64,000 nucleotides of DNA from assembly GCA_950295325.1 (NCBI GenBank), contig OX485806.1, positions 58,523,169 through 58,587,168 on the forward strand, in the 5' to 3' direction. The notes beneath the pieces are model-generated. The model had not been told where the DNA came from. It saw nothing but the letters and a program-made list of their open reading frames with translations, and ran no database searches. The position numbers and the translations under genes are program-made. Below, piece after piece: positions 1,493-51,083 of this stretch. This stretch comes from Polytrichum commune (Eukaryota; Streptophyta; Polytrichopsida; Polytrichales; Polytrichaceae). How positions within the stretch are numbered: position 1 is the first letter of the stretch; each line of letters starts with the position of its first letter.

Positions 1493-1569
1493 GGTCTAGT
1501 TACGTATGAACATATGCAACTTCCATACTGGAAACTGCACATGACAGATCACACGCACAAACAGCCTCA

Positions 1570-3393: not shown

Positions 3394-3396
3394 AAA

Positions 3397-9631: not shown

Positions 9632-11733
9632 ATGGGACCAGGGGAAACAGAGAAGGAGGAAGAAACCCCAAGACGATGGAGTGTGAAGCCCGTTGTGTTA
9701 CCTGATATCCCGTTGGCATTAAAAAGAGCATGGAAGGCCAACCAAATTAAGCTGGAAATGGCAGGGGTGTTTGAGTATTTGTGTTGGGTTTAGGCGATCA
9801 CTAAGGTGGCCTTTGTGGGCCATGTACTCCAATTTTTGGAAACGTACTCTTTGGGTATGGAAACGGCAAAAGTCGATGGCCAAGTGATTGAGTTTTTTGC
9901 CCCTGCGATAGGAAGACAATTGTGGATCCCATCCGATGGGATAGCGGAAGGACAATTGCTTGCCTTGACGAGAAAACAACACGAAATCATTTTTGAGGGA
10001 GAATTCCCTAAAAATACCCGGATCTAGAGGGGAGACAAGGCCAGGCAACACTGGAGGTTATGGTTCAAATTTGTGAACAGTTACTTGATTTTTCGACCTC
10101 ATCCTGAGACAATAGCCCAAAAATATGTCGTGGCCGCCGTTCAGACTTGGGAAGGGAAGAGGATCAATTGGTCCCAAATAATTCAACAACAAATGCATGC
10201 TGAGATTCTGCGGGTCAAGGTGGGAGTGCCACGGACAGTGGAGTTGTACTCAGCCTTTTACATATATTTTTTCTGCCGTGATGTCCCTACACCCCGAGGA
10301 CGACAGGACGCACCCTCGACGTCCCAAGCGGTGAGCCCCGTGCCGTCAAGCCCGGGAAATTCAGAGGAGCTGGTGGAGGACAATCACAGACTTAGGTTAC
10401 AGTTGCAAAAGTGTCGGGATACGTTGCGGGAGAAGACGGATCAGCTATGGGCGAAGAGCGAATTGCTCATTACCTGCCAATCCGAGAACGTGAAACACCT
10501 GCAGGAGTTGGCTGAGGCTATCCCAGAGAAGGTGGAGCACCAAAAGAGGCTTGAAGATAGCACAAAGACTATAGCCTCGAACCATGACCAGCTGGCCGCT
10601 CAGGAGAAAGAGATTATGGCCCTGCAAAGTAGGTTGGACCAGCAAGGAGGTGAATCCGAGCAATTAAACGATTGCCAAGACCAATTAAGGCGAGTTACAG
10701 AGGAGAAGGAGAAGTTAACCGAAAGGTTACGATCCTTGGAGGAAGAATTGACGCAGCAAAAAGCGTTGGCGAGTAACCTGAATGCGAGGGAACAATCGTC
10801 CATGACCTCGGTGGTTACCAGTCCGATTCGAGTTACTCCTGCGCCCAAAAAACTCTGTTTGGAATTGTGGAGCTGGGAATCCAGAGGACCGGTTCCCAAA
10901 GAATTTTTTGAGTTGTATGAAAGACAATGTCAATTTTTTCTTTTGTTTATAGGTTTGAAGAAGTCTGAATGGATTGACCATAGTCGTTTTAAAGAGCTGT
11001 GGCGTCAAAGTCTAGACTTGGGGATAGAAAATTTGTTTGTAGAAATTCTGGCCCGAAAACATATTAACCTTTCGGATCCCTACTCGGCTTTTATGGTAAT
11101 TGGGGATGTAGGGGCTAGAGTCTTGTTGTATTACGCGTCTCTAGAGCAGCAATGGGTCTTGAGATGTCAAAATACTAACCTTGTAGCGAAAAGAGAGGTA
11201 TCTTGGCAAGAATATGGAGTCCAAGTAAACTCACAATTTTATGGTCAGCCCCTAGAGAGTCTACAGTTTTGGCGGGATACTTTACAAGAATTGCTTAACC
11301 GAGTTAGGCACCCTACTTTTTTGACCAATATAATGTCCGCCAATGTTCAACGTCTATCCCTGTCACCGAGTGCGGCGTTTACCGGGTCTCATTATTTTTT
11401 TCAAATTGAAAAGACCACTAACAGACTAGAGAGGTATTTGATGGAGGTGAACACACAAAAGAAGCCCTTATTGAACCTCCATAGCCAAGTCCAGTTTGAA
11501 CTACCCCCAACTAACTTTTTGCCTACCATACCCCAGCTGCAAGTACCCGTAGTGGGGAGCCCATTGACTTTAAGATACCTGGGGCAATACGCTAACATGT
11601 TTGATCACCCGGGTGAGGAGCCTATACCCACCTGGACAGCCATCACCTGGCTACTTGAAGACTATGGCCTTTCCCGTAATGAGGAGGTACCGGCCGATAT
11701 TCAATACCGGAGACTTTCAAGACGATGGCCTGA
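7741..11733. repeat. Dispersed 10-bp dyad motif RRCWATRGYY
   Basis: Exact matches start at 7741, 7992, 8172, 8257, 8407, 8592, 8974, 9026, 9458, 9495, 10108, 10567 and 11660. One- or two-mismatch versions occur near 7822, 7879, 8321, 8450, 8928, 9161, 9206, 9535, 9570, 9873, 10612 and 11720. The pattern is nearly its own reverse complement, with half-sites GRC and GYC around an AT-rich centre. It continues from the spacer into the downstream ORF. About 0.25 exact matches would be expected by chance in 4 kb at equal base use. Confidence 0.8.
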
Positions 11734-12074
11734 TGGACCACCAGCGGGGGTGGCGAGTCACCCACATTTTTGTCCGTGCCCCAGAAGAGGCAGGTGGAAT
11801 CCGGAAGCAACATTGTCAAGTGTCGAGTACAACTGGCCGTTAATTCAAGGGCCCAAATCAACACCAGCGGAGTGCAGAGCGACTTACAAGCATTTTTTCC
11901 AAGAGCACATTCATCACCGCGACCCTGTTTGTTTCCGAGCAGCCGTGTTTGCTAATGTGTTGGCCGATTGGTGTGGCCAGTGGAATGTGACCATTGATGT
12001 CAATCGTTTCCACGAAAGTCACCTTGAATTTTTACTCTTGTTGAAGTTGATGTATAGGCCTACGAGGTGGATTC
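9632..12074 (+). pseudogene. Long extra ORF downstream of pol, 5' part (coiled-coil protein)
   Basis: A frame from an ATG at 9632 runs to the insertion point at 12074, with in-frame TAG stops at 9791 and 10025. After a compact N-terminal part there is a long heptad-rich coiled coil (about 10370-10790, many Leu/Glu/Lys/Gln) and then a globular part. I do not recognise a family. The frame is cut by the nested element and resumes at 24846. Extra ORFs after pol are known in Athila/Tat elements, some called env-like, but I see no transmembrane segment or signal peptide. It could be a captured host gene or a lineage-specific structural protein. Confidence 0.6.
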
Positions 12075-12615
12075 TGTCGTGTAAACTAAGATCGTTAAAC
12101 ACAACAGATCGAGTGTCGTTGTCAACATCAATTAGCAAAATAAAATAGCAAACTAAAATGCTAAACAACCACCTCTTCAAGATGAGGGTTTATCTCTCCA
12201 AGCTTAAGAAACTAAAATGTCTCCTTACAAAGCTTAAGAAACTTTAAAATTCACACACAAGAGTCAAGCTATCTCTCACTCCACGAAAGGAGAATCCAAG
12301 AGTGCAAGTGGTGGAGAAAGAATGCAAAGGCTTTACTCATAATCTACTACACCATAGCCATGAGAAAGCAACAACAAGCTCTCTCTCTCTCTCAAAACAC
12401 ACTCACAAGACTTGACTTGACAACAATGGCAAGTCAAGAGGCCTTCCTCTCCATACAACCCCAATCCTATGTGGAGTTCATCCATGGAGTGGATGAACAA
12501 CTAACTAGGACTCCCAATGGAGTCTGTTACTCATCCCAACACACATGGACTCCTAATGGGGTCCATTTACTCCTAAATTGACGTAACTTAGCCCCCGATG
12601 TTACCTCACGTGACA
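12075..12615 (-). repeat. 3' LTR of the methyltransferase element, complete (541 bp)
   Basis: On the minus strand it starts TGTCACGTGAGG and ends ACACGACA. It consists of a 434-bp part A (12182-12615), also present at the other end of the element, and a 107-bp part B (12075-12181), repeated just inside the element. A 73-codon open frame in part A is on the opposite strand and looks incidental. Confidence 0.85.
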
Positions 12616-12617
12616 GC

Positions 12618-12724
12618 TGTCGTGTAAACTAAGATCGTTAAACACAACAGATCGAGTGTCGTTGTCAACATCAATTAGCAAAATAAAATGGCAAACTAAA
12701 ATGCTAAACAACCACCTCTTCAAG
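12618..12724 (-). repeat. Extra partial LTR copy (part B only)
   Basis: It is 107 bp and identical to 12075-12181 except at one base (12690 versus 12147). It is separated from the complete LTR by only GC (12616-12617). A purine-rich tract resembling a polypurine primer site lies just before it on the minus strand. Confidence 0.85.
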
Positions 12725-13048
12725 TGCCCCCACTAGCAGATAAGGAGCCCCTCCAATCGGCTAGGAACAAACACACTCATCGGTAGAGTTGTTGAACATG
12801 ATGAAGTTGTTGCTACATCTATACATATTTAATTGGGTAGTAGTAATCGAAGGAATTAAACTCGTGATTGACAAAGTAATCCAAGAACTGTAGGTTGGGT
12901 GCAATGTGAACCCCATCCTTAATCGCCTTCAACAATTAATGTTGAATTCTTGGATAACTCTTTCAATATGGTCTTAATTCCATAAAATTTCCAACCAACT
13001 AAATAACAACTTCACCACTAAAACATGTGGTAAACATCCACAAAATTC
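12725..13048 (-). other. 3' untranslated region of the methyltransferase element
   Basis: About 320 bases between the pol stop codon and the partial LTR copy. On the minus strand it ends in AGTGGGGGCA, a plausible polypurine tract. No gene is seen. Confidence 0.6.
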
Positions 13049-16000
13049 TCAATCATGACCATTAACGGCCACGGAATGAGAGGCTTTCCGACAACGAGGA
13101 CAAACCCAATTGCCAGAAGGAAGAGTAAAAAGGGGAGGTGTCAAACATGCCATATGCCATCCACGTTGACATTGGTCGCACAATAACATTGTTGCAGCTC
13201 CTTTCTTCTCTCCACAAACATAACAAGGCAGACCCTGTGGTACAACCGCCAACTCGGGATGCACAGAGCTGTCGATGGGAAGGTGACATGGAGCACAATT
13301 CTTTGAATGCTCACGACATTCCCGTCCATCCTTGCCTTCAAGCAATAATATACCACTTGGCAAGACATCTTTTACCCGCAAAATCGTGCACCCAGCCTTG
13401 ACATCCAATGTCGTAGGCGCCTCCCGTTGCAAGTAAACATAATCCCCTTTGGAAAATCTACGAACCTGAGGTCGATAAGCTCCACTGCGGCTCCGGGCAT
13501 ACCGTAATGTATCACGATGTTGAGCAATATTTAAGTTCTCCATAGCCATAGGCATGGCCTTTTGGAAGAACGTTGCTCGGTCATGAAGACATTGAGCCCA
13601 AACATCTGGATCATCCAAGTTTACCACGGGAGCCAATTTCTCTCGCACCGAGCTAGGTAAAATTGGTTCCCGTCCATACAAGAGTTGGTAAGGACTATAG
13701 GATGCCAAAGATGCTTGCCTGCTGAAACGATAACCCATTGCTATCCATGGTAACATCAAGTCCCAATCGCGATGGTTGCCATGAAGCAATCCATACTTCC
13801 GCAAACCGCGCTTAACCGTCTGAACAACTCGTTCAGCTAAGCCATCTGCCTCAGGGTGATCTCTGGAAGTTGTCCGATGATCAATCAAAGCCTTGGTACA
13901 CAAAGCCTCGAAAGATCCAAGGAATTCTCTCCCTTGATCCGTCAACACCTCTGCAGGTGCTCCAAGCCGTGCCAAAACTCGATCAAGAAATGTCATAGCC
14001 GCCAATTCTGAGGAATTTTGGGGAAGAGCCACGAGTTCAATCCACTTACTAAAATGCTCCACCATCACAAGCACATACTTGGAACCACGTGGAGTGATAG
14101 TAAGCGGTCCGGAAAAATCCAAAGACCAACGATATCCCAAGCCCATAATAGGTAAAGGCTGAAGTTGAGGTGACAAAGTATTAGAACTTGACCTGACCCG
14201 GTCACATACTTCACACCGAGAAACATAAGTGACAACCTGTTGATACATACCAGTCCACCAATATTGGTTGCGCAACATAGAGTGCGTCCTTCGCACTCCA
14301 AAATGTCCAAGCTCCTCGTGCACTTGCCGCACCAAAGAAGCTCTTTGATCTGGCCTTGGAACGATGCGCCTCGTTCCGTTCGGCCACACACGAAATAACA
14401 AGCTGTTTGCCCAACGAAACCTTGTTATCCGGTGACTAACTCTAACTCGCTCCATAGCAGATAGTCCAAGAGGAAATATCCCTTGTTGAAGTTTGTGCAA
14501 GACCGTCTGGTCTTCCCACACATCACTAACAACGAGAGATTTATCAACCTCCTCATCTTGTTCTTTTACAAGGATCTCAGCAGCCAATCCCGACATCATT
14601 GTGAGATATGTGGCAGTATACCAACCCGGCACTGCCTCACGATCACAATCTCCATGCCACCTGGCTCCAGTTAAATCTTCATCTGAAGGACTTGGATTGC
14701 GAGACAATCCGTCTGCATCCAAGTTGGCAATTCCTGCTCGGTGAACAACTTCAAAATCATATTCCTGAAGTAACAATGCCCACCTAGCAAGTTTCCCGGT
14801 GAGCTTATCTGATTCCATAAGCCATTTTAAAGGCTGATGATCAGTCACCAAAGTAAACTTTTGCCCATACAAATAAGGTCGAAAATGTGCAATGGCCCAA
14901 ACGGCCGCCAAGGCCTCGCCTTCATAAGAAGAATAATTAGATTCAACACTATTATTGCTTTTAGATGCATAAGCCACCACATATTCCTTTCCCTCTTCAT
15001 CTTTCTGTGTCAATACCGCTCCCAATCCCACTGCACTCCAATCCGTGTGCAATTGAAAAGCTCTAGACACATCCGGGTGTCGAAGCACTGGCGTTGAACC
15101 GAGCCTCTGCTTCAATGTATCAAATGCCTGTTGTTGTTCCCGACTCCAAATCCATGGTTGGTCTTTCCCCGTGAGAATGGTAAGAGGTTTGGCAATCAAA
15201 CTAAATTTTTTGACAAACCTCCTATAATAATTTGCCAATCCTAGAAATGCACGAAGCCATGGTACATCACTAGGTGCGGGAATTTTGTGCAAAGCATCCA
15301 CCTTCGTCTGTTGCACACCAAGACCGCCAGGAACAATCATGTGGCCTAAATAGGGCAATTGATCATGGGAAAACTTACATTTTCCATGATGTAAACGGAG
15401 TCCCCACCGTTGAAGTCGTTCAAATACCGCTTGCAAATGTCTCACATGATCCTGTGGACTATTACTAAAGATGATAACATCATCAATGTAACATCTAGCA
15501 AACAACAAACCAGCCAATAATTGGTCCATCACCCGCTGAAATTCAGCTGGTGCATTCTTGAGACCAAATGGCAGAAATTTCCAATGATAAAGCTGATCCT
15601 TGCCATCTTTATCAATTCCCCAAAATGCGGTCTTCACCCGGTCCCCCAACAACAAAGGTAATTGGTGATAACCAGACCTCAAATCCAGAGTGCTGAAGAT
15701 TCTATAAAATCCCAGTGCATCAAACAACTCCTCCGGCATCGGCATTGGATATCGATCCGACTTGGTCTTGCGGTTGACTGGACGATAATCACCACACATC
15801 CGTTTTTCCGTCCAGTTGCCAAAGATATCCTTCTTTAACGGCATAACCGTGGCACAAGCATACTCTCCATTGGAGAGTTCAATCAATTCCGCTGCCAATA
15901 ACTCTTGACATCGAGTTTGAACACCCAACCTTTCAGAGGTACTAAGTCTGTACGGCCGTCTGAAAATAGGGTGGTCGTCCTCGAGTTGAATACGAACAGG

Positions 16001-16180
16001 TTTACCTTTATATCCTTCAAGATCATGAAGACTAAAGGCAAAACAATTACGGTAAGAGCGAATAAATGCCCGTACCTTTCGTGCTTCGGCACCAGTAAGC
16101 TTTGGCCCCACTTTAATTGGCCAATCGTCAAACTCCGTGGTTTTCTTCTTCATAGAAGGATTGCCACTTGGTGCCAGCAC
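13049..16180 (-). CDS. pol: Pol: reverse transcriptase, RNase H, integrase and C-terminal PHD finger
   Basis: 1043 codons without a stop. RT has FLPFGLKNAPAEFQ and catalytic YIDD at residues 231-234. RNase H has its first Asp at 380 (HTDWSAVGLGAVL). Integrase has an HHCC zinc site (H621, H626, C656, C659) and catalytic D688, D748 and E783. The last 58 residues form a C4HC3 PHD finger (from about residue 986): CYVC, CDQC, HMAC and CPRC pairs with the expected Trp before the last pair. PHD fingers usually read histone H3 tails. Here one may guide integration or recruit the enzyme to chromatin, which is inference. Only a TAG at 16193-16195 separates this frame from the upstream methyltransferase part, so the start at 16180 is only the first ATG-like position, not a proven start. 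Confidence 0.92.
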   Translation of the reverse strand: MLAPSGNPSMKKKTTEFDDWPIKVGPKLTGAEARKVRAFIRSYRNCFAFSLHDLEGYKGKPVRIQLEDDHPIFRRPYRLSTSERLGVQTRCQELLAAELIELSNGEYACATVMPLKKDIFGNWTEKRMCGDYRPVNRKTKSDRYPMPMPEELFDALGFYRIFSTLDLRSGYHQLPLLLGDRVKTAFWGIDKDGKDQLYHWKFLPFGLKNAPAEFQRVMDQLLAGLLFARCYIDDVIIFSNSPQDHVRHLQAVFERLQRWGLRLHHGKCKFSHDQLPYLGHMIVPGGLGVQQTKVDALHKIPAPSDVPWLRAFLGLANYYRRFVKKFSLIAKPLTILTGKDQPWIWSREQQQAFDTLKQRLGSTPVLRHPDVSRAFQLHTDWSAVGLGAVLTQKDEEGKEYVVAYASKSNNSVESNYSSYEGEALAAVWAIAHFRPYLYGQKFTLVTDHQPLKWLMESDKLTGKLARWALLLQEYDFEVVHRAGIANLDADGLSRNPSPSDEDLTGARWHGDCDREAVPGWYTATYLTMMSGLAAEILVKEQDEEVDKSLVVSDVWEDQTVLHKLQQGIFPLGLSAMERVRVSHRITRFRWANSLLFRVWPNGTRRIVPRPDQRASLVRQVHEELGHFGVRRTHSMLRNQYWWTGMYQQVVTYVSRCEVCDRVRSSSNTLSPQLQPLPIMGLGYRWSLDFSGPLTITPRGSKYVLVMVEHFSKWIELVALPQNSSELAAMTFLDRVLARLGAPAEVLTDQGREFLGSFEALCTKALIDHRTTSRDHPEADGLAERVVQTVKRGLRKYGLLHGNHRDWDLMLPWIAMGYRFSRQASLASYSPYQLLYGREPILPSSVREKLAPVVNLDDPDVWAQCLHDRATFFQKAMPMAMENLNIAQHRDTLRYARSRSGAYRPQVRRFSKGDYVYLQREAPTTLDVKAGCTILRVKDVLPSGILLLEGKDGRECREHSKNCAPCHLPIDSSVHPELAVVPQGLPCYVCGEKKGAATMLLCDQCQRGWHMACLTPPLFTLPSGNWVCPRCRKASHSVAVNGHD

Positions 16181-16192
16181 AGCCTGTGATTG

Positions 16193-16781
16193 CTAGTCTG
16201 TGGAGAGGGTAACACCTTTGCCCCCATCATCTACACTTGAATCCAAATGCGTATCCTCTCCACTACAATCAGTTTGTGTAGCTAAATAGCTACCCACATA
16301 TGAAGTATCACCAAGAAATAGAAGTGGAAACATTTTATGGGCCTCCAACTTCCCAAACTCTTGGGCCAAAGCTGAAAAAACACGTTGGGCTCGAAGCTCT
16401 TCCGCAACATGAAGTTTCAAAGGAAATAATCCCTCGGTGTCATTGACCTCAATGTGATCCTTGGATTGCGGCTCCATTGCCCCCTGACCATTGTTCTCTG
16501 CCCTCAGAGTAAGCAATTGGTCATCCATACGTTGTTGAGCAGCAAGACAAATTCCAATTATCCACACAATGCTATTAAGATCCATAGCTTGCCCCAATAG
16601 GAAATGTCTCTGACCTTCCTGAAGCCTATGAGCAGCCGTGGTACCTGTAAGAAAACCCATGGCGCGTTCCCGCTCATCTGCCGTAGGCTCCTCATAAGTT
16701 TGGGATTTTGAGTCCCAAACCATGCCAGGTCCACGAGATCGAAATGCAAAAGACTGTGGATATGTCACAAAAGTAGGTAGT
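16193..16781 (-). pseudogene. C5 DNA methyltransferase, C-terminal part (motifs IX-X region)
   Basis: An open frame that reads in from the solo-LTR insertion point. It contains RERAMGF and LLGQAMDLNSIVWI, matching the conserved C-terminal block and motif X position of conventional-order C5 methyltransferases of the DNMT3 type. If the solo LTR and its target duplication are disregarded, the frame is continuous with the part at 19625-19800. It ends at a TAG (16193-16195) that lies in frame with RT. CAG to TAG is a simple explanation, but a natural readthrough stop between the methyltransferase and RT cannot be excluded. Confidence 0.75.
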
Positions 16782-19619
16782 TGTGGTACTTTTGGGCCAC
16801 CCCCTTTCGAGGGAGCCTAAAAGTATCACACAAGCCCTTCGGTGAAGGTGGCCTGCATTTGCAGGCGCCCAAGCCGAACCCGGATGATAGGTGTATAACG
16901 TGAGTAGTTAGATTTTTAAGGGAGATTAAATATGCGTCGTAATACCTCCGGAGGTTAGGCCTTAGTTTTTTACTAGTGTGGCTTTAAACTCCACTAACCA
17001 ATTTCATATCTAGTTCTAACCTTAACCTACAACCTATTCTACGCGCAGACGCACCAGCCTTGAAACCAAGGCAATCCTAATTTGTGAATTGGGATGGTTC
17101 TGATACACCCAACCGGGTGTGACTCATACCACCCTAACTCAACGAACGGAATAACGATAATTTGATGGACCATTCAATTCTTCCTATTTATTTATTTAGT
17201 TCTATTTAGTTTTCTAAGCGGGGGAACTTGGCCTAAGTCCCACCCTTCACACAAATTCCTTCTTAATTACTTACTTTTGTTTGCACGTCCTAACTTACTA
17301 CATTAACATATTAGGCATCACCCCTTACCTCGGGTCTCTTGCCAACAAGGGTTTACGATTTATTTGGTATGTTTTTATTGTTAAATGTGTTTACACTGGA
17401 TAGACCACGAAATGCAACTCAATGGGACCAGGGTGACGGGCGACCTGTAGGTTCAACCTGTTGCGCAATCTTCATAAATTGGGGCCATTACTCCCAATCT
17501 ATGGGGCCAACAACATAATAGTGGATTCGCGGGTCATTAACCCCACCTTTCCACCAACAACATTCAGAGTGGTCGTGTCGGTGATTAATCCGACTTACCA
17601 CACACGAAACTTGCTAATAAATGAAGCTACTACCACAAAACATACCAAGGGCCCCGAAAACAATGGAATTGGGTACTCCCTTGGCGGTCAAGTGGTCAAG
17701 CCACTTGACCTTACGAGATAGGTGAGTGGGTTTAGAGATGCGTACCTTAGCCGTGCTCCCTCCAATCCTAAATGGAAGGCTTAAGGTTAGTTAATTTACC
17801 TCAATTTTCCTCGGTTGATTTGGGCTTGATGTAGGCCGAGCCGCTACCTTCTTCCTTGCTCCACTTTCCGAGCGTCGACCTTGCCTCCTTCTTTGTAACT
17901 AGTTTGGTAGTAAGCGTACCTTAGTTAACAATTAAAATATAAAGTGTTATTCTTCCCTGTAATTTAATCCTAAGCATAATATTTATACTTAGTGCACCAA
18001 ATTATCTTTCCAATGATCTAAAAATCACTCTAATCGGATAAGAAATGCAAAAGTTATGAGGGTTGGAAGTGTGAGGTCGATTCAACCGACCCTTCCAACC
18101 CACCTATCTACCTTCTAACTTCAAAAATTCATAGCACATTCCTTACTACTTGGATCTAGGCTTTCCTTATACCATTGGAAAGCTATGAACAAGCTCTAAC
18201 TAGAAAAAATTATGACATCAGCAGGTTAAGGTAATAGAAATTCAGCGGACTCCTTGTAACACAGCAGTCAATCAAGAAGGCTTAAACTATGTATCTCGCC
18301 TTCAACAATTCATATCTAATTCAAATCTTAGTCAAATCAAACGTTCTATATGACCCTGGAGAGATATTAAAAATATTTATTTGATAAAAATATGTGATTA
18401 GAAAGGTAAGCCGAAGTGAACCCAGCAGGTCCTCTGTAATGCAGCAGTCAACCAAAAGTTCTCAAACTATGTGTCCCATCTTGCACAATTCATATCTAAT
18501 TCAAATCATGCTCAAATCAAATGTTCTAAGCCATTTTGGAAAGCTACACAAAAGTTCTACTTGGGAAAAATATAATTTCTTGGAATTAAAATTCCTATTG
18601 GGCTCGCAGGTCTGATCCAGCAGCCGCTACCCACAAGACCACCCAGTTTTTCTACTCCATCTTTGAAAATCCATAACTAATTGTCATCTCAACCAAATCA
18701 CAAATGGGAAACGGCTATGGATAGCTATATGAAATCTCTCTAAGAGAAAAATGATAAGTATCTTGTTCTAGCTTTTGAACTAAGCCTTCAGGGCATTGGC
18801 AGATGAGGTCTATAATGCCTCTACTCAAAATTCTACCATCCAACCTACCTCTACAAAAGAAGGAATCATTTTGTTGGTGTGTTAATAAACACACATTCTA
18901 ACTAGGAGAGAGAGTAGAGGAGGTTGTCAAGCCTTTCTTTTAGACCATTGAGAATACATGCTAAAGGATTTTTTCCTAACTACATTGAAGCAGGGCTTCG
19001 CCCAAAAACTAGAGAAAGAGAGAGTGCTACAAGGTGGAAGGAGGGGTTTTTAAACCCTCTCACAAAAGGGTTGGACCCCTCCTCCACCGGATCCATTTTT
19101 CAAACCCTTTCCCGAAATTTTGGCTCGGGGGTTTTCCCGGTTGAGGTTGCCACCCTCTCGCCGAGGTGGCTCCGACAAAAAACCTTTAGAAATCTTTCTA
19201 ATTTTTCCGCCATCGAGTTGGCAAGGGGGCAAGTGGGCAAGTATCCCCCTTGCTCTCTTTCTTTTTTGTCTTCAAAATTCTTCACGCCGATTTTATCTTC
19301 TTACGTAAAACACCTCCAATAGTCTTGTGTGCCTCACACTAACTAATAAACTAACACTTGCTTGGCTAGCATCTACTAACATTTGCTTAATAACTAGCAT
19401 CTACTAATATTTGCTTAGCTAGTTGTTTTTACTAGCTAGCACATTTTTTCTACTTTGCTATCTTCTAGCACTACTTAGTTTCATTTTGACCTTCCTTCTT
19501 CTAGGCTAAATGCTAAATGAACTAATTTTCCCTAAATTCCCTATCAATTCTAACTTTTAATGCTAACATTCTAACTAAAAGTGATCCCGCAGAGTGGTGG
19601 ACCACTCAAAGGGTTCACA
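16782..19619 (+). mobile_element. Solo LTR, 2838 bp, copy 1
   Basis: It begins TGTGGTACTTTTGGG and ends GGGTTCACA, with a perfect 5-bp target duplication GTAGT (16777-16781 and 19620-19624). It contains no element internal region. It is nearly identical to the inverted copy at 51084-53922 and related to 44230-47026. Small open frames within (17461-17721, 18924-19322) occur in the other copies without recognisable domains and are probably not genes. It interrupts the methyltransferase domain of its host element. Confidence 0.93.
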
Positions 19620-19624
19620 GTAGT

Positions 19625-19803
19625 ACACCTCTCGGAATTCCCACCTTGTTAATTAATGCAAATGGCAAGGTGTCATCCTTGGTAACTGCCAAGGAAGCAC
19701 GATGATCATCTAAAATGTCATCCACCTTGCGATCCATAAGGCAGGGAATGTGGACAATCGCCGCTGAAAACACCCGAGGTGATACCAAGTTGGTCCAAAA
19801 TCA
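19625..19803 (-). pseudogene. C5 methyltransferase target-recognition region after a premature stop
   Basis: About 58 codons in the same frame as the upstream methyltransferase part. They lie between a TGA (19801-19803) and the solo-LTR insertion. The TGA directly follows HRPR, the motif VIII position, so a Trp codon (TGG) mutated to TGA is likely. The stretch falls where C5 enzymes have their variable target-recognition region. Confidence 0.65.
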
Positions 19804-22800
19804 ACGAGGCCGATGAGCAAAGGATCCCAAAGATACAGCATCCAGAAATGTTGGAGTACCCAGAATTTGGTTAATGTACTCACCATCCTTCACCACTTTG
19901 TGCCGGGTATCATCCAATAATGGTACATTTTCGAAAATGTACCCTAGCGGAGTTGATTGGTAGGTAAACCACCATTGCGTCAATCGCATCAAAACCGCAA
20001 ACAAACTAGACCTAGGATCATCCAATCCCTGGCCAGTTCCTGCCCGCGAATGGCCTTGACAAGGCCATCCTGCAATAATCAAATCCACGTGGCCCAACCT
20101 TCTCAAATCCTCATCACTAATCATAGTGATATCTTCAGGAAGTTGACCACAACATCCATGAATGGCAGAGGCTGACAATTGTGCGGGGTATCTCAACAAC
20201 AATTGTTGGATGTGGTGTCGGACGGCTTTGTTGGCTGCATACCCATTGTCCACATGAATATATCGCCAAACTGTAATTCCAGCTTCCAACACTGCCGCCA
20301 AACCTGTGCCAATGCCTCCAAAGATCTCCACAAGGACAATACCTTCAGGTGATGGTTGCCAACGAATGGGTTGAGCAAAAGAAAATGAGGATAAAGTTGG
20401 AGGTGCCTCTCCAAGCTCCAAATCCGCTACAATGTGTCGACAATGGTCGGATAATTCCTTAGGAGTTCGCCATGGTGGAGGTGGATCCTTGAAATGTCGA
20501 GCAGGAATTTGAAAAGATGGTAAAAATTGTTGTTCTGCCGCATTACAAGTGTAGTCCATTGTTTCCTCCAATAAAACTGGAGCACAATGCAAATCTGCAA
20601 CTGAACCGCTGCAACCAAACATTGCCTCCGCAACCATAGTCATAGCAGTGGCTGCAAATGTGACGGGAATAAATACCTTCCTGCCATCTCCAGTGGACCA
20701 TCCCGGTCTAATCCATGCCTCTTCCGTCCAATTATCCAAACCAAAGCCAAGTGGGTAAAGAGCTTGCTGACCAACAAGTATATCATAGTTGGTAGCATTA
20801 GTAACAACACACTTCATTGACATATGAGTGTAAGTAGGCCCTGCCCCCACATGAAAAATCAAACGTAGAGGTGCCTTGGTGTAACCTGCTGCACGTTCAG
20901 TGCCCCCTACTGAAGTCACAATAGTAAATGGACAAGGATCCAAGCTTGCTGGCGTCAATCCAAGACTGTCAGCAAGTCCTTTGCCAATCATAACCGGTTG
21001 AGCACCGGAATCCATCATAACTCTCAGTGGTGTAGCACGGATAGTGGGCATATCCGTGCGTGAAACGACAAACAAAGATTTGTCGTTCATCAGCCGTACA
21101 ACTCCAGGTTGCAAATTATGCCGTTCGCGAGCAGGCCTTGCAGAAATGTCTGCAAGATATGCCGCTCCCGACGCATAATTCGAAAACGACGTATCCACTG
21201 CTGAAATTGATGCTGGAGGAATATCAGTTTGCTTACCAAAAGCAATGATCGCCGCATCCGCAAGACTCGCTCGCAAATTGGCTAAGTCCTCCACCTCCTC
21301 AACCACAGGTACGTCAACCACAGCTTGGGATACTTGAAGGGATGGCAAATCCGCCTTACCTTCTAACATTCTCCCGGCTAAATGAAAAACTGCAGCAGGC
21401 TTGAAATCCGAAGCCATAAACTCCAAACCCGAGAAAATTGGCATATGGAGAAATTTATATGCCAATGCCTGCGTAACATCCTTCAAGATGGAATCCCCAT
21501 CTCTCAAAGGTACAGGGTTTTTAACCCCAACAACAGTGGTGTTTACCAATCCAAATGAAAGAGGTAAACGTGCTTGACCAATTTGATCAGCTGGTCCGGC
21601 ATGGCGAGGATGTAGCACCTCGTTGCTACCACCACTCGTAGAAGCCACCGCATCTGCCAATGTTTGTGAGCGAGTAGAAGCCGCCGCCACCACCTCCCCA
21701 GCTGCTCCAAACATATACATGTCCGAACCCGAGGTGCCACCACCCACATGCGGCTCAGAAATTTGAGCAAAAGATGCAGAAGATTTGAGCTTTTGCTCAA
21801 GCTCTGCCATCTTAGCCTCAAGACTCTGCTCCCTTGGAGACTTTCCAGTGACATAACTGGCAGGCCGCATCTCAGGATGAAGTTGGAAACAATGATCCAC
21901 ATCGTGATTAGTGCCACCACAATGGTTACATTTCAATTGTCTCTTCTTAGAATTGTCCCCTGCCTTTACTGGTTCCATCTTTTGTTTTAATTTTCCCAAA
22001 GGCTGAGTTTTCTTCTTCTTAGGACAATTGGGATCATTCTTCGAATGACCAGCTTCTCCACAACCCCAACAATGCAAAATCTTTTGCTCCTTGACGGGTT
22101 GAGTCTCAGCTAAACTACTAGTAGCTGTGACAATTCTTCTTGGTTTCGGACTCTCTGTCATCCAAGATACCATATCCGTGGCATCATGTTGGCAAAGAGC
22201 CCGATCACATCTCTCGACCACGGCAAACGCTTGTGCAAGCGTAGCCCGGCCCTCGTAGTCGAGGATAATCTGAGGTGATGCCAACTCAAGTAGCCGCTTG
22301 TCAATCTTAGACAAAAAGATTTTAACAAGCTGACTCTCAGCAAAAACACCTCCCGACTCCACAGCAAATCGCGCGAGTCGCGTATACATGGTCCGTGGAG
22401 TATCATCCTTCTTTCGGCGGAAATGCTGGATGCGCTGCATCTGGTCTCGCCGAAACCCACCATACTCCACTTCCAAATGTGCGACAAATTCAGTAAGGGG
22501 ATTAAACGGAGGTGGTGGACCAACAGCCGTCAATGCTGCCTGTGTAGCATGTGCCACCCGTGAAAGGGTTGCCGTGCTACTGCTAGCCACCATTGGCCCA
22601 AGTGCCAGTTCCGTGTCCTTAGACTCCGCCGGCGATTCCTCCTCCTTTAAGGTGGGTGGAGCTAAGGTAGCAACCGCCCCATCCTTAAGGGCTGAAATGA
22701 GCTCAACCCGAGCCTCCCAATACTGCTCCACCTCCCGAAGTTGTCGCTGATGACCCTCTGTCCAACGTTCATAAGTTTGGAGTGCCTCATACTCCAAATG

Positions 22801-23133
22801 TTGAGGCAGAAGTTCAAAGGCATACCAATCATTGAAATTGGAAGACCTTTGGCATTTCTCCTTAATCCAGGTACGAAACCGGAGTTTCCAATCGGGCAAG
22901 GAAATGCCCCCAGCTCGACCTGAAAACCGATCACGCACTGAATTGTGGCGATCGTCCTCCATTTCGTCGAACGTGCCGACACTCCAAATCCGAAGCCTAC
23001 TAGTAGTGTCCAACGCCGAAATAGGCTCAAAAGCCTCGTTGGTATCTACCTCTGGCTCAAGATTTGTGGTATGCACGTCCTCCAAGTAATCTGGTGATGG
23101 AGATCGATAATATCGGCTCCTAGTTTGCACCAT
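19801..23133 (-). CDS. Gag, aspartic protease and C5 DNA methyltransferase catalytic region
   Basis: 1110 codons from ATG at 23133. The gag part has two zinc knuckles (CWGCGEAGHSKNDPNC near residue 354 and CNHCGGTNHDVDHC near 403). An aspartic protease has its MDSG motif near residue 704. From residue 931 a C5-cytosine methyltransferase follows in conventional order: motif I FGGIGTG (938-944), motif IV with catalytic Pro-Cys-Gln (1024-1026), motif VI ENV (1068-1070) and motif VIII HRPR (1107-1110). The frame then stops at TGA. Order I to X without circular permutation suggests a DNMT3-like rather than a plant DRM origin; this is inference. The methyltransferase sits between protease and RT, so it would be made as part of the polyprotein. 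Confidence 0.92.
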   Translation of the reverse strand: MVQTRSRYYRSPSPDYLEDVHTTNLEPEVDTNEAFEPISALDTTSRLRIWSVGTFDEMEDDRHNSVRDRFSGRAGGISLPDWKLRFRTWIKEKCQRSSNFNDWYAFELLPQHLEYEALQTYERWTEGHQRQLREVEQYWEARVELISALKDGAVATLAPPTLKEEESPAESKDTELALGPMVASSSTATLSRVAHATQAALTAVGPPPPFNPLTEFVAHLEVEYGGFRRDQMQRIQHFRRKKDDTPRTMYTRLARFAVESGGVFAESQLVKIFLSKIDKRLLELASPQIILDYEGRATLAQAFAVVERCDRALCQHDATDMVSWMTESPKPRRIVTATSSLAETQPVKEQKILHCWGCGEAGHSKNDPNCPKKKKTQPLGKLKQKMEPVKAGDNSKKRQLKCNHCGGTNHDVDHCFQLHPEMRPASYVTGKSPREQSLEAKMAELEQKLKSSASFAQISEPHVGGGTSGSDMYMFGAAGEVVAAASTRSQTLADAVASTSGGSNEVLHPRHAGPADQIGQARLPLSFGLVNTTVVGVKNPVPLRDGDSILKDVTQALAYKFLHMPIFSGLEFMASDFKPAAVFHLAGRMLEGKADLPSLQVSQAVVDVPVVEEVEDLANLRASLADAAIIAFGKQTDIPPASISAVDTSFSNYASGAAYLADISARPARERHNLQPGVVRLMNDKSLFVVSRTDMPTIRATPLRVMMDSGAQPVMIGKGLADSLGLTPASLDPCPFTIVTSVGGTERAAGYTKAPLRLIFHVGAGPTYTHMSMKCVVTNATNYDILVGQQALYPLGFGLDNWTEEAWIRPGWSTGDGRKVFIPVTFAATAMTMVAEAMFGCSGSVADLHCAPVLLEETMDYTCNAAEQQFLPSFQIPARHFKDPPPPWRTPKELSDHCRHIVADLELGEAPPTLSSFSFAQPIRWQPSPEGIVLVEIFGGIGTGLAAVLEAGITVWRYIHVDNGYAANKAVRHHIQQLLLRYPAQLSASAIHGCCGQLPEDITMISDEDLRRLGHVDLIIAGWPCQGHSRAGTGQGLDDPRSSLFAVLMRLTQWWFTYQSTPLGYIFENVPLLDDTRHKVVKDGEYINQILGTPTFLDAVSLGSFAHRPR

Positions 23134-23289
23134 AAAATAATCACTTGAGTACCTGCAACTATCTACAAGGTAATGGCAACATGCACATGTTGCGGGCTAT
23201 CTAAATGGCAATCCCTTGCCAAATGCCAAGTGTTTATGCCCCCAGAATTCCAAAATTGTGCAAAGGTTTGAGATTGGTAATTAAAATGA

Positions 23290-23575
23290 AAAATCAGCGT
23301 TGAAAAGACTCATTTCCAAGGTGATTATGGACTCCAATCAACAAACTAAGTGCACCAATGGACTCCTAGGAAGATTTCACACAAATTAGGCTTAAATTTC
23401 ACTCCAATCGGAGTTAATTTGCTCCCAAAAACAAAAATCAGCGTTGAAATTAATAATTTCAGCAATGATTTTGAATTCCAATCAACAATCCAATTACACC
23501 ATTGGATTCCTTGGCAAATTTCACACAAGATAGGCTCAAATTCCACTCCAATCGGAGCTAGTATGCCCCCAAATT
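23290..23575 (-). repeat. Imperfect tandem duplication of about 140 bp
   Basis: Two units (about 23290-23429 and 23430-23575) share AAAAATCAGCGTTGAAA, a TCCAATCAACAA block, an ACTCCAATCGGAG block and a final CCCC/AAA segment. They lie just upstream of gag in the leader. Confidence 0.75.
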
Positions 23576-23639
23576 TGAACCTCAAAGTTTGTGAGAATTG
23601 GATGCCAAGTTTGAAAGGTGAAAGTAAAAATGTGAAAAT

Positions 23640-23900
23640 AAAATAAAATAGAAATAGAAATATTTGTTTTAATTAAACAAAGAAAAAACAAAAACAAAAA
23701 CAAAAACAAAAACAAAAAACAAAAACGAAAAAAAATAAAAATAAAAATAAAACTTAATTAACTTAATTAATTTAATTTAACTCAACCTAACTTAATTAAC
23801 TTAAACTAATGAACCTAATTTAATTAAGCTAATTAATTTAATTCACTTAAACTAATTAACTAACTTAATTAACTAATTAAGTTAACTAACTTAATCAAAT
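23640..23900. repeat. Low-complexity AAAAAC and TTAATTAAC sequence
   Basis: An AAAAAC-type simple repeat (about 23690-23750) is followed by degenerate TTAATTAACT repeats up to about 23900. Confidence 0.85.
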
Positions 23901-23926
23901 CAAGGGCTTACCTTGAAACAAGGGGG

Positions 23927-24015
23927 GGGGCCAGGCTGGCACCACCCGCCCCTGCCGGCCCGCTGCCAGTTCGCCGTGGGGCCCGGCCGCCGCCCGCCCG
24001 CCCGCCCCCGGCCCG
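23927..24015 (-). other. GC-rich, CpG-dense block in the element leader
   Basis: About 90 bases of nearly pure G/C, with roughly 14 CpG sites, sit in AT-rich sequence. On the element's sense (minus) strand it carries runs of three or more Gs at short spacing (GGGGGCGGGCGGGCGGG), which fits a G-quadruplex pattern. Confidence 0.75.
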
Positions 24016-24411
24016 GGATCTGCCACAGAGTTTAGAACCGGAGCTCCAGGAGGGTCTGGTGAGCTCCGGATCCGTCCGGAGCTCAAATTAAATTAAAACT
24101 AAATTGGATTTTGATTGTGGTTTATGTTTGTATTTAAATTAAACTTTGCTTCACAATTTGCAAGCAAGAAAATGTGACTTGAGAATCTCGAAACTAAATG
24201 GAATCTCAAGATTCAAACATCAACAATTGAAGAAAATACAAGAGACAACAAAAGAAAAATGGGAAGATTTCTCTCAAAATCTTCTTGAGGATTGCAAGAA
24301 ATGACGAACTAAGCTTTCAAACACTTGTATTACTCATTTGCTCTCATTACTGGGCCATTCTAGCTCAGAAATGCAACCAAAAATGAAAAATTTGAACAAT
24401 TGTTGTCAAAT

Positions 24412-24845
24412 ATGAGGGTTTATCTCTCCAAGCTTAAGAAACTAAAATGTCTCCTTACAAAGCTTAAGAAACTTTAAAATTCACACACAAGAGTCAAGCT
24501 ATCTCTCACTCCACGAAAGGAGAATCCAAGAGTGCAAGTGGTGGAGAAAGAATGCAAAGGCTTTACTCATAATCTACTACACCATAGCCATGAGAAAGCA
24601 ACAACAAGCTCTCTCTCTCTCTCAAAACACACTCACAAGACTTGACTTGACAACAATGGCAAGTCAAGAGGCCTTCCTCTCCATACAACCCCAATCCTAT
24701 GTGGAGTTCATCCATGGAGTGGATGAACAACTAACTAGGACTCCCAATGGAGTCTGTTACTCATCCCAACACACATGGACTCCTAATGGGGTCCATTTAC
24801 TCCTAAATTGACGTAACTTAGCCCCCGATGTCACCTCACGTGACA
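24412..24845 (-). repeat. 5' LTR of the methyltransferase element, part A only (434 bp)
   Basis: It matches 12182-12615 over its full length with one base difference (24832 versus 12602). The 107-bp part B that ends the other LTR is missing; the sequence passes directly into the leader at 24411. Confidence 0.85.
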
Positions 24846-25103
24846 ATTCGGATGGTTGAAGTTATGGCCATGACTCATTTCATCGCCGGAGCCCACAAGT
24901 GTTTGATAAATGAATTTCCTTATACACGGGCTGGACCGTTTGAGCGATTCCTGAGATGGCAACGAATGAATGCACCCGAGGTAGTGGCCCGCGACGAGGA
25001 TTTACAACGGGCAATTGAGAAGATGGAGACAAGAGAGTTGAAGAGAGCAGCCGAAGATGCAGCCCAACGTAACCAACCTCCACCGAAGTTGCTAAGAAGA
25101 TAG
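24846..25103 (+). pseudogene. 3' end of the outer element's coiled-coil ORF
   Basis: After the nested element the frame of the ORF at 9632-12074 resumes through the shared ATTC and runs to a TAG at 25101-25103. It ends in a charged, helix-prone tail rich in Arg, Glu and Gln. The clean continuation supports both the insertion boundaries and the reality of the ORF. The product remains unrecognised. Confidence 0.65.
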
Positions 25104-29598: not shown

Positions 29599-31146
29599 TA
29601 TATGAATAATGAATTCAAAAATAGTAAAGGTGCATGGGTTTAGGGTACATGAACTAAATATAGTACTACATGAATTGAAGATTTTCAAATGTAAAGAGTT
29701 CAAATGAAGCAAGAAGGAATCGTATTACCGTGGATCATTGGAAATACTTCCAGTCCATTGCTAATTTTTATTATAACAATCCAAACCAAAACATGTCATT
29801 TTTTGACATTCAAATATATGGTACTTAATAGACCATTTACAATACTACTCACACTCTACAATACCAGCAAGTCAAGTAGTCGCATGACCTTGTTATAGGT
29901 ATATGTAGGTGCATGAATGAACTTGTCACTCTCGTAATCCACCTTACACAAAAATCTAAACACATAATAAAGATGTTTACAATACACCCATTTTCCTTTC
30001 TTTCCCAATGCATGAGAGGACATTTTCGTGAAATCCGGGCATGTGCAATGCGGGATGTCGCCAATTGTGACATGATATGTGATATCTTGCTTGGAGACAA
30101 TGTTGATTATCACTCCAAAGCCCGGATATGGAATGGTAGTGACCCCAACCACATAGTAACACTCCATGAGTCCGGCACTCTCCCATTTGTTTTTGTGATC
30201 CGCTAGCGGTGTTGTTGGATTACGACGCACTGTCTTCCCAAACCTGAATGTAGGGTGGGCATCCGGGTTTGGTGGCATAGAAAAATGCGAGCGAGGGATG
30301 GGGAGAGTTGCAATTGTTGAAAGCCTACAACGAGGGGACAATGCCTCCCTCTGCTGTAGTTGAAATCCAACATCTTCAAGTGCCAAAACCTCCTCTCTCG
30401 ATAGATTGGTACCTATCTTCATCGGCCATATGTTGGGTACTATAGGCCAGTCCAACACATATTTCTTCTTACTGCCACTCACACAACGCTTGATGTCGTC
30501 AGGGCAAAACCAAAATTCATACTCCACATTGTTGGGAGATCGAAATTCCTTCCTGAGCCCTTTGTATGTTGGGGCAGGTGTGCCATGTTTCCCAGTCCCG
30601 ATTTTAGCATTGCACATAGTCCATGTAATGGCCTGTAGTGCCCAACATCGTTTGGCTGAGTTGGGTGGTAATTTTGCAATGTGCCAGTTGGAAGTAAGAC
30701 AATCAGTCTCTAACACGGATGTAGTATGAGCCACACCATGAATTGCAGAACTCAACGATTCCTCTATGCGTTGACGAGTTGCTCGGGTGTTGGGACGAAG
30801 AATGGAATACTTCACTTTGTCGGGTCGATGAGAGTCACAAATCAGCACCCGGTGGTAGGTTGAGTTTGCGTTTGGTGGAACCAAAGAGTTATGACCCTTC
30901 CAATGCACAATCTCTAGTGTTGACGTCTTCTGCCCCTGGGTAAGACTTCATGGCATAAGCCAACATTTTTGGATCTCCACACCAGGCAGCTGTTTTGAGT
31001 TTCAAGGAGGCCGAATCAGGACCTTTACCATCAGACCCCCCTTTCAACCATGTCCGGTAATTTGCAATTTGCATGAAGGCACGGATCATGTCGTCCACTG
31101 TAGCTTCATATAAACAAGTCATCTTGTTGCCGGACTGTTGGAGCCA

Positions 31147-31515
31147 TTTGTTGTGTACAGTCTCTGCAAGGTTGCATGTTGGCATTTCCGCACACTCTTC
31201 TATTGTCATATCCTATGAACAACACACAAATACAAGAATAAAACAAACATAAGATAGATTATATATCTAGGTTTGGGTCGTTCGACCCAAAATGGCTACC
31301 ACATTTGGGTCGAACGACCCAAACTGCCTACAAGGTTTGGGTCGAACGACCCAAACTGCGTGCCACGTTTGGGTCGTTCGACCCAAACTGTTTGTTGTTT
31401 GTTGTGTACAGTCTCTGCAAGGTTGCATGTTGGCATTCCCGCACGCTCTTCTATTGTCATATCCTATGAACAACACAGAAAGACAAAGATAAGAAAAACA
31501 TAAGATATATTACAT
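31147..31515 (-). repeat. Partial exon-intron duplication in the transposase gene
   Basis: About 115 bp covering an exon start and the adjoining intron (31147-31265) is repeated at 31392-31515 with a few changes. Each copy has a usable splice acceptor (exon start at 31212 or about 31463). The phased palindromes at 31271-31388 lie between the copies. Confidence 0.8.
31271..31388. repeat. Phased palindrome array B in a transposase intron (4 copies)
   Basis: Four 22-bp inverted repeats with arms GTTTGGGTCG and CGACCCAAAC around TT or AA start at 31271, 31303, 31335 and 31367, exactly 32 bp apart. Confidence 0.92.
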
Positions 31516-33663
31516 TGAGTGATGAAGTTTGATATGTACTTACAAGTAGCATATGGCCACCCCATTGTCTGTAACAAAAGTGCCAAAATCCCAACCACTC
31601 TGAAAGGCCAAGGATGCCTTCTTCGGAGGCAGCTCCAGATGACAACCACCAAGAACGAATAACATGGTACTTGGTCTCAGCATCGTCCATTGTTTTCGCG
31701 TCTTTGTAATCCTTGCATATTTGTTTATGTTGAAATTGCAAGGATGGTTTGATATACTTTTGGGTCACCTTATCCAAGCTTGCAGATCAATGGAAAAGAC
31801 ATGTACGCTCACGTGCAACCATGGGTAGATTTGGATCACCATCCCCGTAAATCGCCCTCACCGCAATCCAATTAGCTTGAACATTATCAGCCATAAACCC
31901 TTTGAAGTTTACGTTTGGTACACCATTTTCTGCCATGACAGCATTCAAATTTTTCCAAAAGAGAATTTGTGCTGCACCATCTTCAGATTGCATGTTACAA
32001 CACGCAATAGTCAACACTTTACAGTATCGACTGTCGTACATATGGCAAACCATGGTCGTCCAGTCCTTCAAACGTTTGACATGGTCAAACATAATCCATG
32101 AATTCTCCATATCCCCACCGACTTGCATCCTCTTCACAAGCTCCACACCACTACCTGGAAGGTCTACAAACATCTTGAAAACAAACATTTTGTCCTTTGA
32201 CTGCCCTGGGAACCGACTACCATGGACGAATTTGAAAGCAGAGTGGTCTTTGAGCGCCATAATACTATCCATAGTTCCCATTCCACTACACAAAAAACGT
32301 TTTGATCTAGATACAAAGTTACGATAATTTGGAGACGGAAAAGTGCTGAATTTGTCCATGACGACCTCTAGGGATGAACCAACCAAGAGATGGCCTTCGA
32401 CATTTGCGGGAGATTTGAGAAGGTAATTGGCCAAGAATTGTTTGCTCGCCGCCATAACTATGGCTGAATTTTTTGCTGTGGGTGTTTTCAATACTTCATT
32501 TGCAACGCATTGGTATGCCATGTCCAATGATTCACGGCATGTGTCATTGGCCACAGGGTGATCATGTACACCAAGATGAATACAAGCCCTGGACATTCCA
32601 ACGGATGTGGAGTGGATGTATACGATTCGAGCATTACACAAAGCAATGCACACAGGTGTGGAACGACATACCTTACACTCGACAGTGGACTTAGTAGGGG
32701 GAACAACACCCACAACAAATGGGATAGGAGTTGAACCGGCCCATTCAGTGTTGTTCCGGAGGCCCCCATTGCGATTCATGTAATCACAGTAGTCATTATG
32801 ACATTGGAGATGACCAGCACAAGTAGAGCGCCGGAATAACAGTCCAAAGTCATTTTGGATATTTGTGGTTTTGGTGGTGCACCAAGGGTGACCGTCGCAC
32901 ATCTTGTCCATGCCGTCCATTGAGCGACCATACGTACTTGGAGCTTTGAGTGCCACAGGAGGCAAGAGAAACAAAACATCACCATTAAAAGAAGATGGTA
33001 AGTATTTGACTTCACGAACATCTATACTGTCAAAATCAATGGATGCAAGATCGGACTTTGATTTTTTTCTTGACTTTGTCAGCTTCAAGGCATCAATCAT
33101 AGTTAACCCTGTAGATGAAGGTGAAGGGTGTAGTGGAGGACGTTGAGAACCACCTTCTTGTACATAAGACCTCAAGGGGATTTGGCTACATGTATAGGAA
33201 GTTGGGAAGGAGTAGAATGAAAACTTCTAAATGGAAATGGCGATGTGTTTGAAAGATCAACAGATGTACAAATGTCATCTTTAGAATCTGATAGCACAAA
33301 CACACTATCATCAAGGGGTTCCACCTTAACAGGTGCGATAGAGGGAATTTGAACTGTGGATGTACCGGATTCGTTTGTCAAAATGACAGTGGAAGCTTGC
33401 ATCTGAGACTCAGAAAGTCCTATCACCATAAATGAACCAGGTCCTAAGATCCACATAAAACCAACATCAGTTCTATTTTTTGGAACCAAAATCATTTCAT
33501 ACACCTCTCCATCTGCAGAGTACATCTCATGCTCTAAATACATGGTTCCTATCCGGAGGTTGAATCTCAAACTAAGTAAATCCTCTGAAACACTCACATG
33601 ACCATCATCTTGGAGTGGCAAGATGAAGGGACCAAAAGATCCATGAGCTCTAATGGTAGCCAT

Positions 33664-35283: not shown

Positions 35284-35536
35284 CTCGCGCCCAACTTTGG
35301 TTAACGCACAGGGTCTGCCCTTGTAGTTTTGGGGTGAGCGGCCACCCTAATCGTATAATATTTAAAGGTGCAAATGGCAATGTCTAGAATAATTTTTGTC
35401 ATTCTTCCCTGTGTTCGTGGTATTATGTTGTTATTGTTGTTGCTATTGTTGTTGTTTTTATAATGTTATTGTTAATGTGTTGCTACTAGTTTTGAAATAT
35501 TTATGACACTTATTTCATTTGTTTTAGAACCAATCA

Positions 35537-51078: not shown

Positions 51079-51083
51079 TTTGC

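Follow-up and report, generated by a model that had tools for sequence, protein, structure and literature searches.

Retrotransposons that code for a cytosine methyltransferase have been described in dinoflagellates and in one charophyte alga (de Mendoza et al., 2018; PMC5890265). According to the main text of that report, they include SymbioDIRS-Dnmt3 and SymbioLINE-Dnmt of Symbiodinium, the DIRS type being arranged as A-coding-B-A-B, and KnitGypsy-Dnmt3 of Klebsormidium nitens, in which the DNA methyltransferase (DNMT) lies in the Pol open reading frame (ORF). Our search of titles and abstract openings, with most subscription journals outside its range, found no DNMT-bearing retrotransposon of a land plant. 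Here we describe such an element from Polytrichum commune. It is a Ty3-type element on the minus strand at positions 12075-24845 of a 64,000-nucleotide stretch of contig OX485806.1 (positions 58,523,169 to 58,587,168 of the forward strand, assembly GCA_950295325.1), hereafter the window.

The domains of the element are arranged as gag-protease-DNMT, followed after a stop codon by reverse transcriptase (RT)-RNase H-integrase-PHD finger, and all features of the element given below are on the minus strand. The frame of the first part spans 19801-23196, and its first ATG in the gag frame is at 23133. The 5' part of ORF1 (19804-23133) contains gag, two CCHC-type zinc knuckles identified in the sequence (22024-22071 and 21889-21930), an aspartic protease with the active site DSGA (20998-21018; PF13650, E 1.3e-4, 23.1 bits, slightly below the cut-off of 24.3), and DNMT motifs I-VIII. 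The first part of the DNMT (19804-20367), with motifs I, IV (PCQ), VI (ENV), and a VIII-like block, was recognized by our own profile and by PF00145 (E 8.1e-11, 42.4 bits against a cut-off of 22). The last part (16196-16776) contains motif IX (ERERAMGFLTGTT), motif X (GQAMDLN), and the ORF1 tail. A preliminary description, made from the letters alone, had proposed a C5 methyltransferase within a Ty3-type polyprotein, between the protease and RT, with its C-terminal block beyond a solo long terminal repeat (LTR); all these assignments were borne out, and motif IX can be added to the displaced block. The interrupting LTR (16782-19619, 2,838 bp) has TG...CA ends and 5-bp ACTAC duplications at 19620-19624 and 16777-16781, and it recurs at 51083-53922 with 99.3% identity, so that the term solo LTR is well supported; a diverged relative is found at 44230-47026. 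The whole element is larger than the extent first proposed, 16193-23133, and an additional in-frame TGA (19801-19803) breaks the DNMT of this copy. We considered CpG decay as the source of this TGA, but the relatives do not bear this out.

By profile and predicted fold, the DNMT of the element is of the DNMT3 class. The motif order I-IV-VI-VIII-IX-X within 320-336 amino acids is normal, unlike the rearranged order of DRM, and the catalytic residues and the predicted fold are of the DNMT3 type. The core fold is common to DNMT2 and DNMT3; the sequence is nearest to the DNA-acting DNMT3, well above DNMT2. In motif order and fold, the catalytic domain is similar to animal DNMT3A/3B and to the plant DNMT3 as described by Yaari et al. 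(2019; PMC6453930). Unlike in DNMT3, Pfam detects no ADD or PWWP domain in the ORF that encodes the DNMT; the enzyme also has PCQ where DNMT3A has PCN, and it is part of a retrotransposon polyprotein. All displayed relatives that cover these motifs retain EN(V/T/A) and the cysteine of motif IV, which reads PCQ, ECQ, or a close variant.

The ends of the element are unusual. With the solo LTR included, it is 12,771 bp long and has the layout A-coding-B-GC-A-B, established from the repeats, the ends, the target duplication, and an empty-site test. The LTR-like terminal repeat A, which starts with TGTCACGTG, is present at 24412-24845 and again at 12182-12615, with one mismatch over the first 434 bases; self-comparison gives 437 bp (24409-24845 against 12179-12615, 99.5%). 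Repeat B, which ends with TTTACACGACA, is found at 12618-12724 and at 12075-12181, the latter copy being the 3' terminus of the element (108 bp by self-comparison, 12617-12724 against 12074-12181). The internal B-GC-A junction contains the dinucleotide GC (12616-12617). The element is flanked by the target site duplication ATTC, at 24846-24849 on its 5' side and at 12071-12074 on its 3' side. When 12075-24845 and one ATTC are removed, the transposable-element ORF at the target site reads on for 766 amino acids, whereas in all four trial joins that kept the outer B as flanking DNA the frame stopped inside B. Since the interrupted frame reopens only when the outer B is assigned to the element, this repeat is part of the inserted unit, and the two ends of the element are therefore different repeats. 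The ordinary LTR element was thus rejected, both by this test and by the ends of the 18 copies described below. The interrupted ORF lies on the plus strand (10028-12074 and 24850-25103) and has a coiled-coil-like part; Pfam yielded no family above the cut-off for its part 10028-12073. The observed/expected CpG ratio is very low in repeat A (24409-24845), 0.21, and is 1.17 in repeat B.

The preliminary description had left room for a one-off insertion or an assembly join. We searched the genome (407.8 Mb, of which 406 Mb is in seven chromosome-size scaffolds of 42 to 78 Mb); the counts for PF00145, the junction, and ORF2 are lower bounds. PF00145 produced 353 candidates; the 123 that were scored all exceeded the cut-off, and some of these may be host DNMT genes. 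Thirty-six of the 123 lie in stop-free frames of at least 1,000 amino acids, nine of these being 1,386 amino acids long. The B-GC-A junction, allowing for up to two mismatches, has at least 242 matches, compared to none for the reversed control pattern. For ORF2, there were 3,974 candidates, and the 44 scored showed 94-97% identity, the window's own match aside; counted by eye, 21 of the 44 are stop-free, including that of the window. A chance match, or gag/RT joined to a bacterial gene by the assembly, was therefore rejected, as the join recurs both in genome copies and in proteins of other organisms.

For close reading, we fetched 18 copies from 20 PF00145 hits picked for long frames, a sampling that favors well-kept copies. 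Twelve belong to the subfamily of the window and six to a second subfamily; between the two, the 320-residue DNMT core has 63-64% protein identity (three pairs). An exact 4-bp duplication flanks the start of A and the end of the last B in all 17 copies where this could be scored, and in 18 of 18 with the window; in the remaining fetched copy, the 5' end was outside the stretch. The layout A-coding-B-GC-A-B was seen in 13 copies, including members of the second subfamily, A-coding-B in four, and one was unclear. Every one of the 13 copies with the junction has GC between B and A, as does the window, and the junction is also found in L007, a contig from a Synechococcales metagenome-assembled genome (MAG). 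The four A-coding-B copies (C6:31.14, C2:22.81, C4:18.57, and C3:13.10) have perfect 4-bp duplications; they fit recombination between two Bs, or may be direct insertions of a repeat-free form. In four of the nine window-subfamily copies compared, the A repeats are identical over 430 bases, indicating recent insertion. The DNMT domain as a whole is under purifying selection.

ORF1 and ORF2 are separated by a TAG (16193-16195), which together with the following CAATCA forms a candidate leaky stop (16187-16195); ORF2 starts directly after the TAG in the same frame. The pattern TAG CAR YYA at this boundary is present in all 18 copies, in the window, and in L007. The hexamer is CAATCA in the window's subfamily, with a single CAACCA, CAATTA in the second subfamily, and CAATCA in L007. 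In the account given in PMC2754532, UAG with CAR YYA is the essential read-through context of tobacco mosaic virus (TMV), with read-through of 32% in a plant assay. The element has the same stop and follows the same hexamer rule, the CAATTA of the second subfamily fitting the CAA UYA of TMV. Unlike that of TMV, its stop separates gag-protease-DNMT from the RT of a retrotransposon, and the read-through is predicted from sequence. Plain decay as an explanation for the TAG was rejected, as the stop is kept in all 18 copies, including seven that are open on both sides (window subfamily; ORF2 open at 1,047 amino acids, ORF1 frames of 1,356-1,386 amino acids). In the second subfamily and in L007, ORF2 has no methionine before residue 117, so that its first one lies within the RT, which speaks against separate initiation. 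The position of the leaky stop suggests that the DNMT, together with Gag and protease, would be made in excess over RT and integrase.

ORF2 (13049-16192, 1,047 amino acids) encodes RT (PF00078, 15335-15811), RNase H (PF17917, 14759-15073), an integrase with the H2C2 zinc-binding domain and the rve core (13853-14353), and a C-terminal PHD finger (PF00628, E 4.3e-10, 13091-13225). The solved PHD fingers closest to that of the element include those of CHD4, PHF12, PHF21A, and KAT6A. Among them are several readers of unmodified H3K4. Integrase chromodomains take part in choosing insertion sites, and by analogy the PHD finger of the element probably steers insertion via histone H3.

To place the element among its relatives, we used three protein searches, which returned 20, 204 (120 listed), and 42 proteins; the queries were the DNMT, so that relatives of the pol part lacking a DNMT were outside their view. 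Among the matches listed, nine relatives have plant names: six are from Marchantia polymorpha, and one each from Calypogeia fissa, Riccia sorocarpa, and Sphagnum troendelagicum. The tenth named relative, P0021, is a protein from a bacterial MAG (Obscuribacterales). L007 and P0021 are probably mis-binned plant retrotransposon DNMTs, and L007 is surely of plant or algal origin. One of the two bears the name of a bacterial DNA cytosine methyltransferase. Taken with the seven large scaffolds, the named relatives indicate a bryophyte host, and probably a moss; n = 7 would be in line with the Polytrichales.

Mapping with a pol profile revealed two layouts. The first, protease-DNMT-RT or fragments of it, is seen in the window, L007, P0116, P0148, P0151, P0152, P0154, and P0166, and P0168 has DNMT-RT; in P0151 and P0154, the DNMT continues into the RT without a stop. 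The second, RNase H-DNMT-integrase or fragments of it, is seen in P0155 to P0165, P0096, P0153, and P0167. The pol profile is common to polyproteins of both layouts, and most of these have a PHD finger. The layouts separate in both of the trees, which were built from profile columns with FastTree, are unrooted, and contain no host DNMT3. Support is 0.979 for the first layout as a group in the pol tree and 0.967 for the second in the DNMT tree. The same split in the two trees favors one old association, within which the DNMT moved once. In addition, P0156 and P0159 have, past the PHD finger, an extra stretch with the motif DPWCGTGTI/DFWCGTRTI that resembles a second methyltransferase; Pfam yielded weak matches below the cut-off for the stretch in P0159 (UPF0020, E 0.035) and none for that in P0156. 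A G-patch domain is recorded in P0155 and P0159, in the latter between the DNMT and the integrase.

Compared with KnitGypsy-Dnmt3 as described in the main text of PMC5890265, the element is similar in its Ty3/Gypsy domains (RT, RNase H, and rve integrase are all present), in the normal-order DNMT3 in an intronless polyprotein, in the DIRS-like repeats, seen here in the window and in 13 of the 18 fetched copies, and in purifying selection on the DNMT. It differs in that the host is a land plant and the DNMT belongs to a gag-protease-DNMT unit that precedes a leaky UAG. DNMT and RT thus do not share an uninterrupted ORF; they are in a single frame that read-through would join. Further, 4-bp target duplications are observed here, KnitGypsy-Dnmt3 being compared by its description only, and pol ends with a PHD finger, a term absent from the main text of PMC5890265. 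No protein named as Klebsormidium was among the matches listed, where nameless entries could be from this alga. The Symbiodinium elements as described in that text use a tyrosine recombinase or are LINEs; the element from P. commune has an rve (DDE) integrase and 4-bp duplications, as a DDE integrase would produce, in place of the tyrosine recombinase and the lack of target duplication of DIRS elements. Within the literature searched, and beyond the main text of de Mendoza et al. (2018), the new features are the occurrence in land plants, the size and young age of the family, the leaky stop, the PHD finger, 4-bp duplications at the ends of split repeats, and a second layout.

The explanation that best covers these observations as a whole, and that we hold to be moderately probable, is that the window contains a damaged member of a Ty3-type family that is high in copy number, was active recently, keeps a DNMT3-class enzyme, over-produces it by means of a leaky stop, rebuilds its ends from B-GC-A, is steered by the PHD finger, and uses the DNMT on its own new DNA or insertion site. 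The family is probably an old one of the green lineage, and its DNMT would be active and methylate the element's own new DNA. In such a cycle, ORF1 would yield Gag-protease-DNMT as the major product, and a minority of ribosomes would pass UAG-CAR-YYA and add RT-RNase H-integrase-PHD, leaving the DNMT in excess of RT. The internal B-GC-A copy may then serve as the template for rebuilding the cDNA ends; the ends and the duplication are observed, and the route is conjectural. Rebuilding of ends from an internal junction has been proposed for DIRS elements. The outer ends lack this GC, which would be consistent with their being trimmed by the integrase before joining. The integrase would insert the A...B ends with a 4-bp duplication at a site that the PHD finger may choose through histone H3, and the DNMT would methylate de novo the new element DNA or its landing site.

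Several observations weigh against this explanation. In the yeast assays reported in the main text of PMC5890265, DIRS-type enzymes methylated CG, while KnitGypsy-Dnmt3 produced no methylation, a result termed inconclusive there. We recognized no tRNA primer site after repeat A, which leaves the priming step unexplained. A methionine at ORF2 residue 14 is present in the window and in 11 of the 12 copies of its subfamily, where separate initiation is possible, and in three of the 18 copies the ORF1/DNMT frame is already broken ahead of the leaky stop. Among recent copies, amino acid changes exceed silent ones in the subfamily of the window (47 against 31; 68 against 84 in the second), which indicates that many copies are decaying, and the synonymous distance (dS) of 2.2 is close to saturation. 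Finally, observed/expected CpG ratios in the coding parts are not lower than in the flanks (0.68-0.73 against 0.57-0.61), so the idea that self-methylation left a footprint of additional CpG decay was discarded.

More boldly, these elements could be a separate ancient retrotransposon lineage of green plants and algae, lacking true LTRs, with ends restored from the internal B-GC-A junction but inserted by a DDE integrase, in which DNMT3 is as constant as RT and made at the level of Gag, each copy is methylated before or at landing, and a PHD reader chooses the site. We put this forward tentatively and would sooner doubt it than rely on it. If true, it would mean a parasite that supplies both the reader and the writer of the host's silencing code, a new copy arriving already marked as silent chromatin.

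Alternatively, the DNMT may act in trans on the host, for instance by altering or swamping its silencing, or on the element RNA, and not on the element's own new DNA. Such a role would suit an enzyme encoded with Gag ahead of the leaky stop and probably made in excess of RT, RNA methylation is discussed for the LINE-type enzymes in the main text of PMC5890265, and DNMT3 has its core fold in common with DNMT2; still, the closeness of the sequence to DNMT3 and the matching split of the enzyme and pol trees, which favors a function within the cycle of the element itself, make this alternative unlikely. We also consider it improbable that a bryophyte family captured a host DNMT3 independently of KnitGypsy-Dnmt3. 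The DNMT is in gag-protease here and in the Pol ORF in Klebsormidium, known to us by description only (PMC5890265, main text), but there, too, Ty3 domains have been reported together with this unusual arrangement of repeats, and the pol profile and, in most cases, the PHD finger are shared by both layouts, which split alike in the two trees. Thus, where the preliminary description had offered either a widening of the known range or an independent capture, the DIRS-like layout and the concordant trees favor widening. There is rather little to be said for the DNMT domain being by now a structural or nucleic-acid-binding part of Gag with dispensable catalysis: it does belong to a Gag-level product, and P0168 retains the domain in a form altered around motif IV, but in both layouts the motif IV cysteine and EN(V/T/A) are kept, and purifying selection extends over the domain. 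It is hardly credible that the B-A-B end arose by local duplication, or by an error of assembly, in an otherwise ordinary LTR element, since this end, although first seen in a single copy and lacking its second A-B in four of the 18 copies (a fifth being unclear), has GC in every junction read, 4-bp duplications in all 18 testable copies, the same form in the second subfamily, at least 242 junctions in the genome, and a target ORF restored only with the outer B.

DNA methylation is the main weapon of plants against retrotransposons, and an element that keeps this weapon under selection is a puzzle. Hundreds of copies, some of them open and recent, allow testing why a parasite carries a silencing enzyme. 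Dinoflagellates and the charophyte are hard systems, whereas the bryophyte copies, namely the Marchantia polymorpha gene models and the young open copies described here, make the question accessible to standard plant genetics and to methylome sequencing. The combination of DIRS-like ends, DDE-type integration, and a DNMT ahead of a leaky stop also raises the question of the replication mode.

The window contains other mobile DNA. A second Ty3-type element on the plus strand (1510-7525) has gag, zinc knuckles, protease, RT, and integrase, and its four scanned ORFs had no DNMT match. Three tested ORFs among those adjoining each other at 35528-38566 on the plus strand had no Pfam match; together, these ORFs look like one mobile element of an unfamiliar kind. 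On the minus strand, MULE-like ORFs are found at 29856-33226, with a weak SWIM match below the cut-off.

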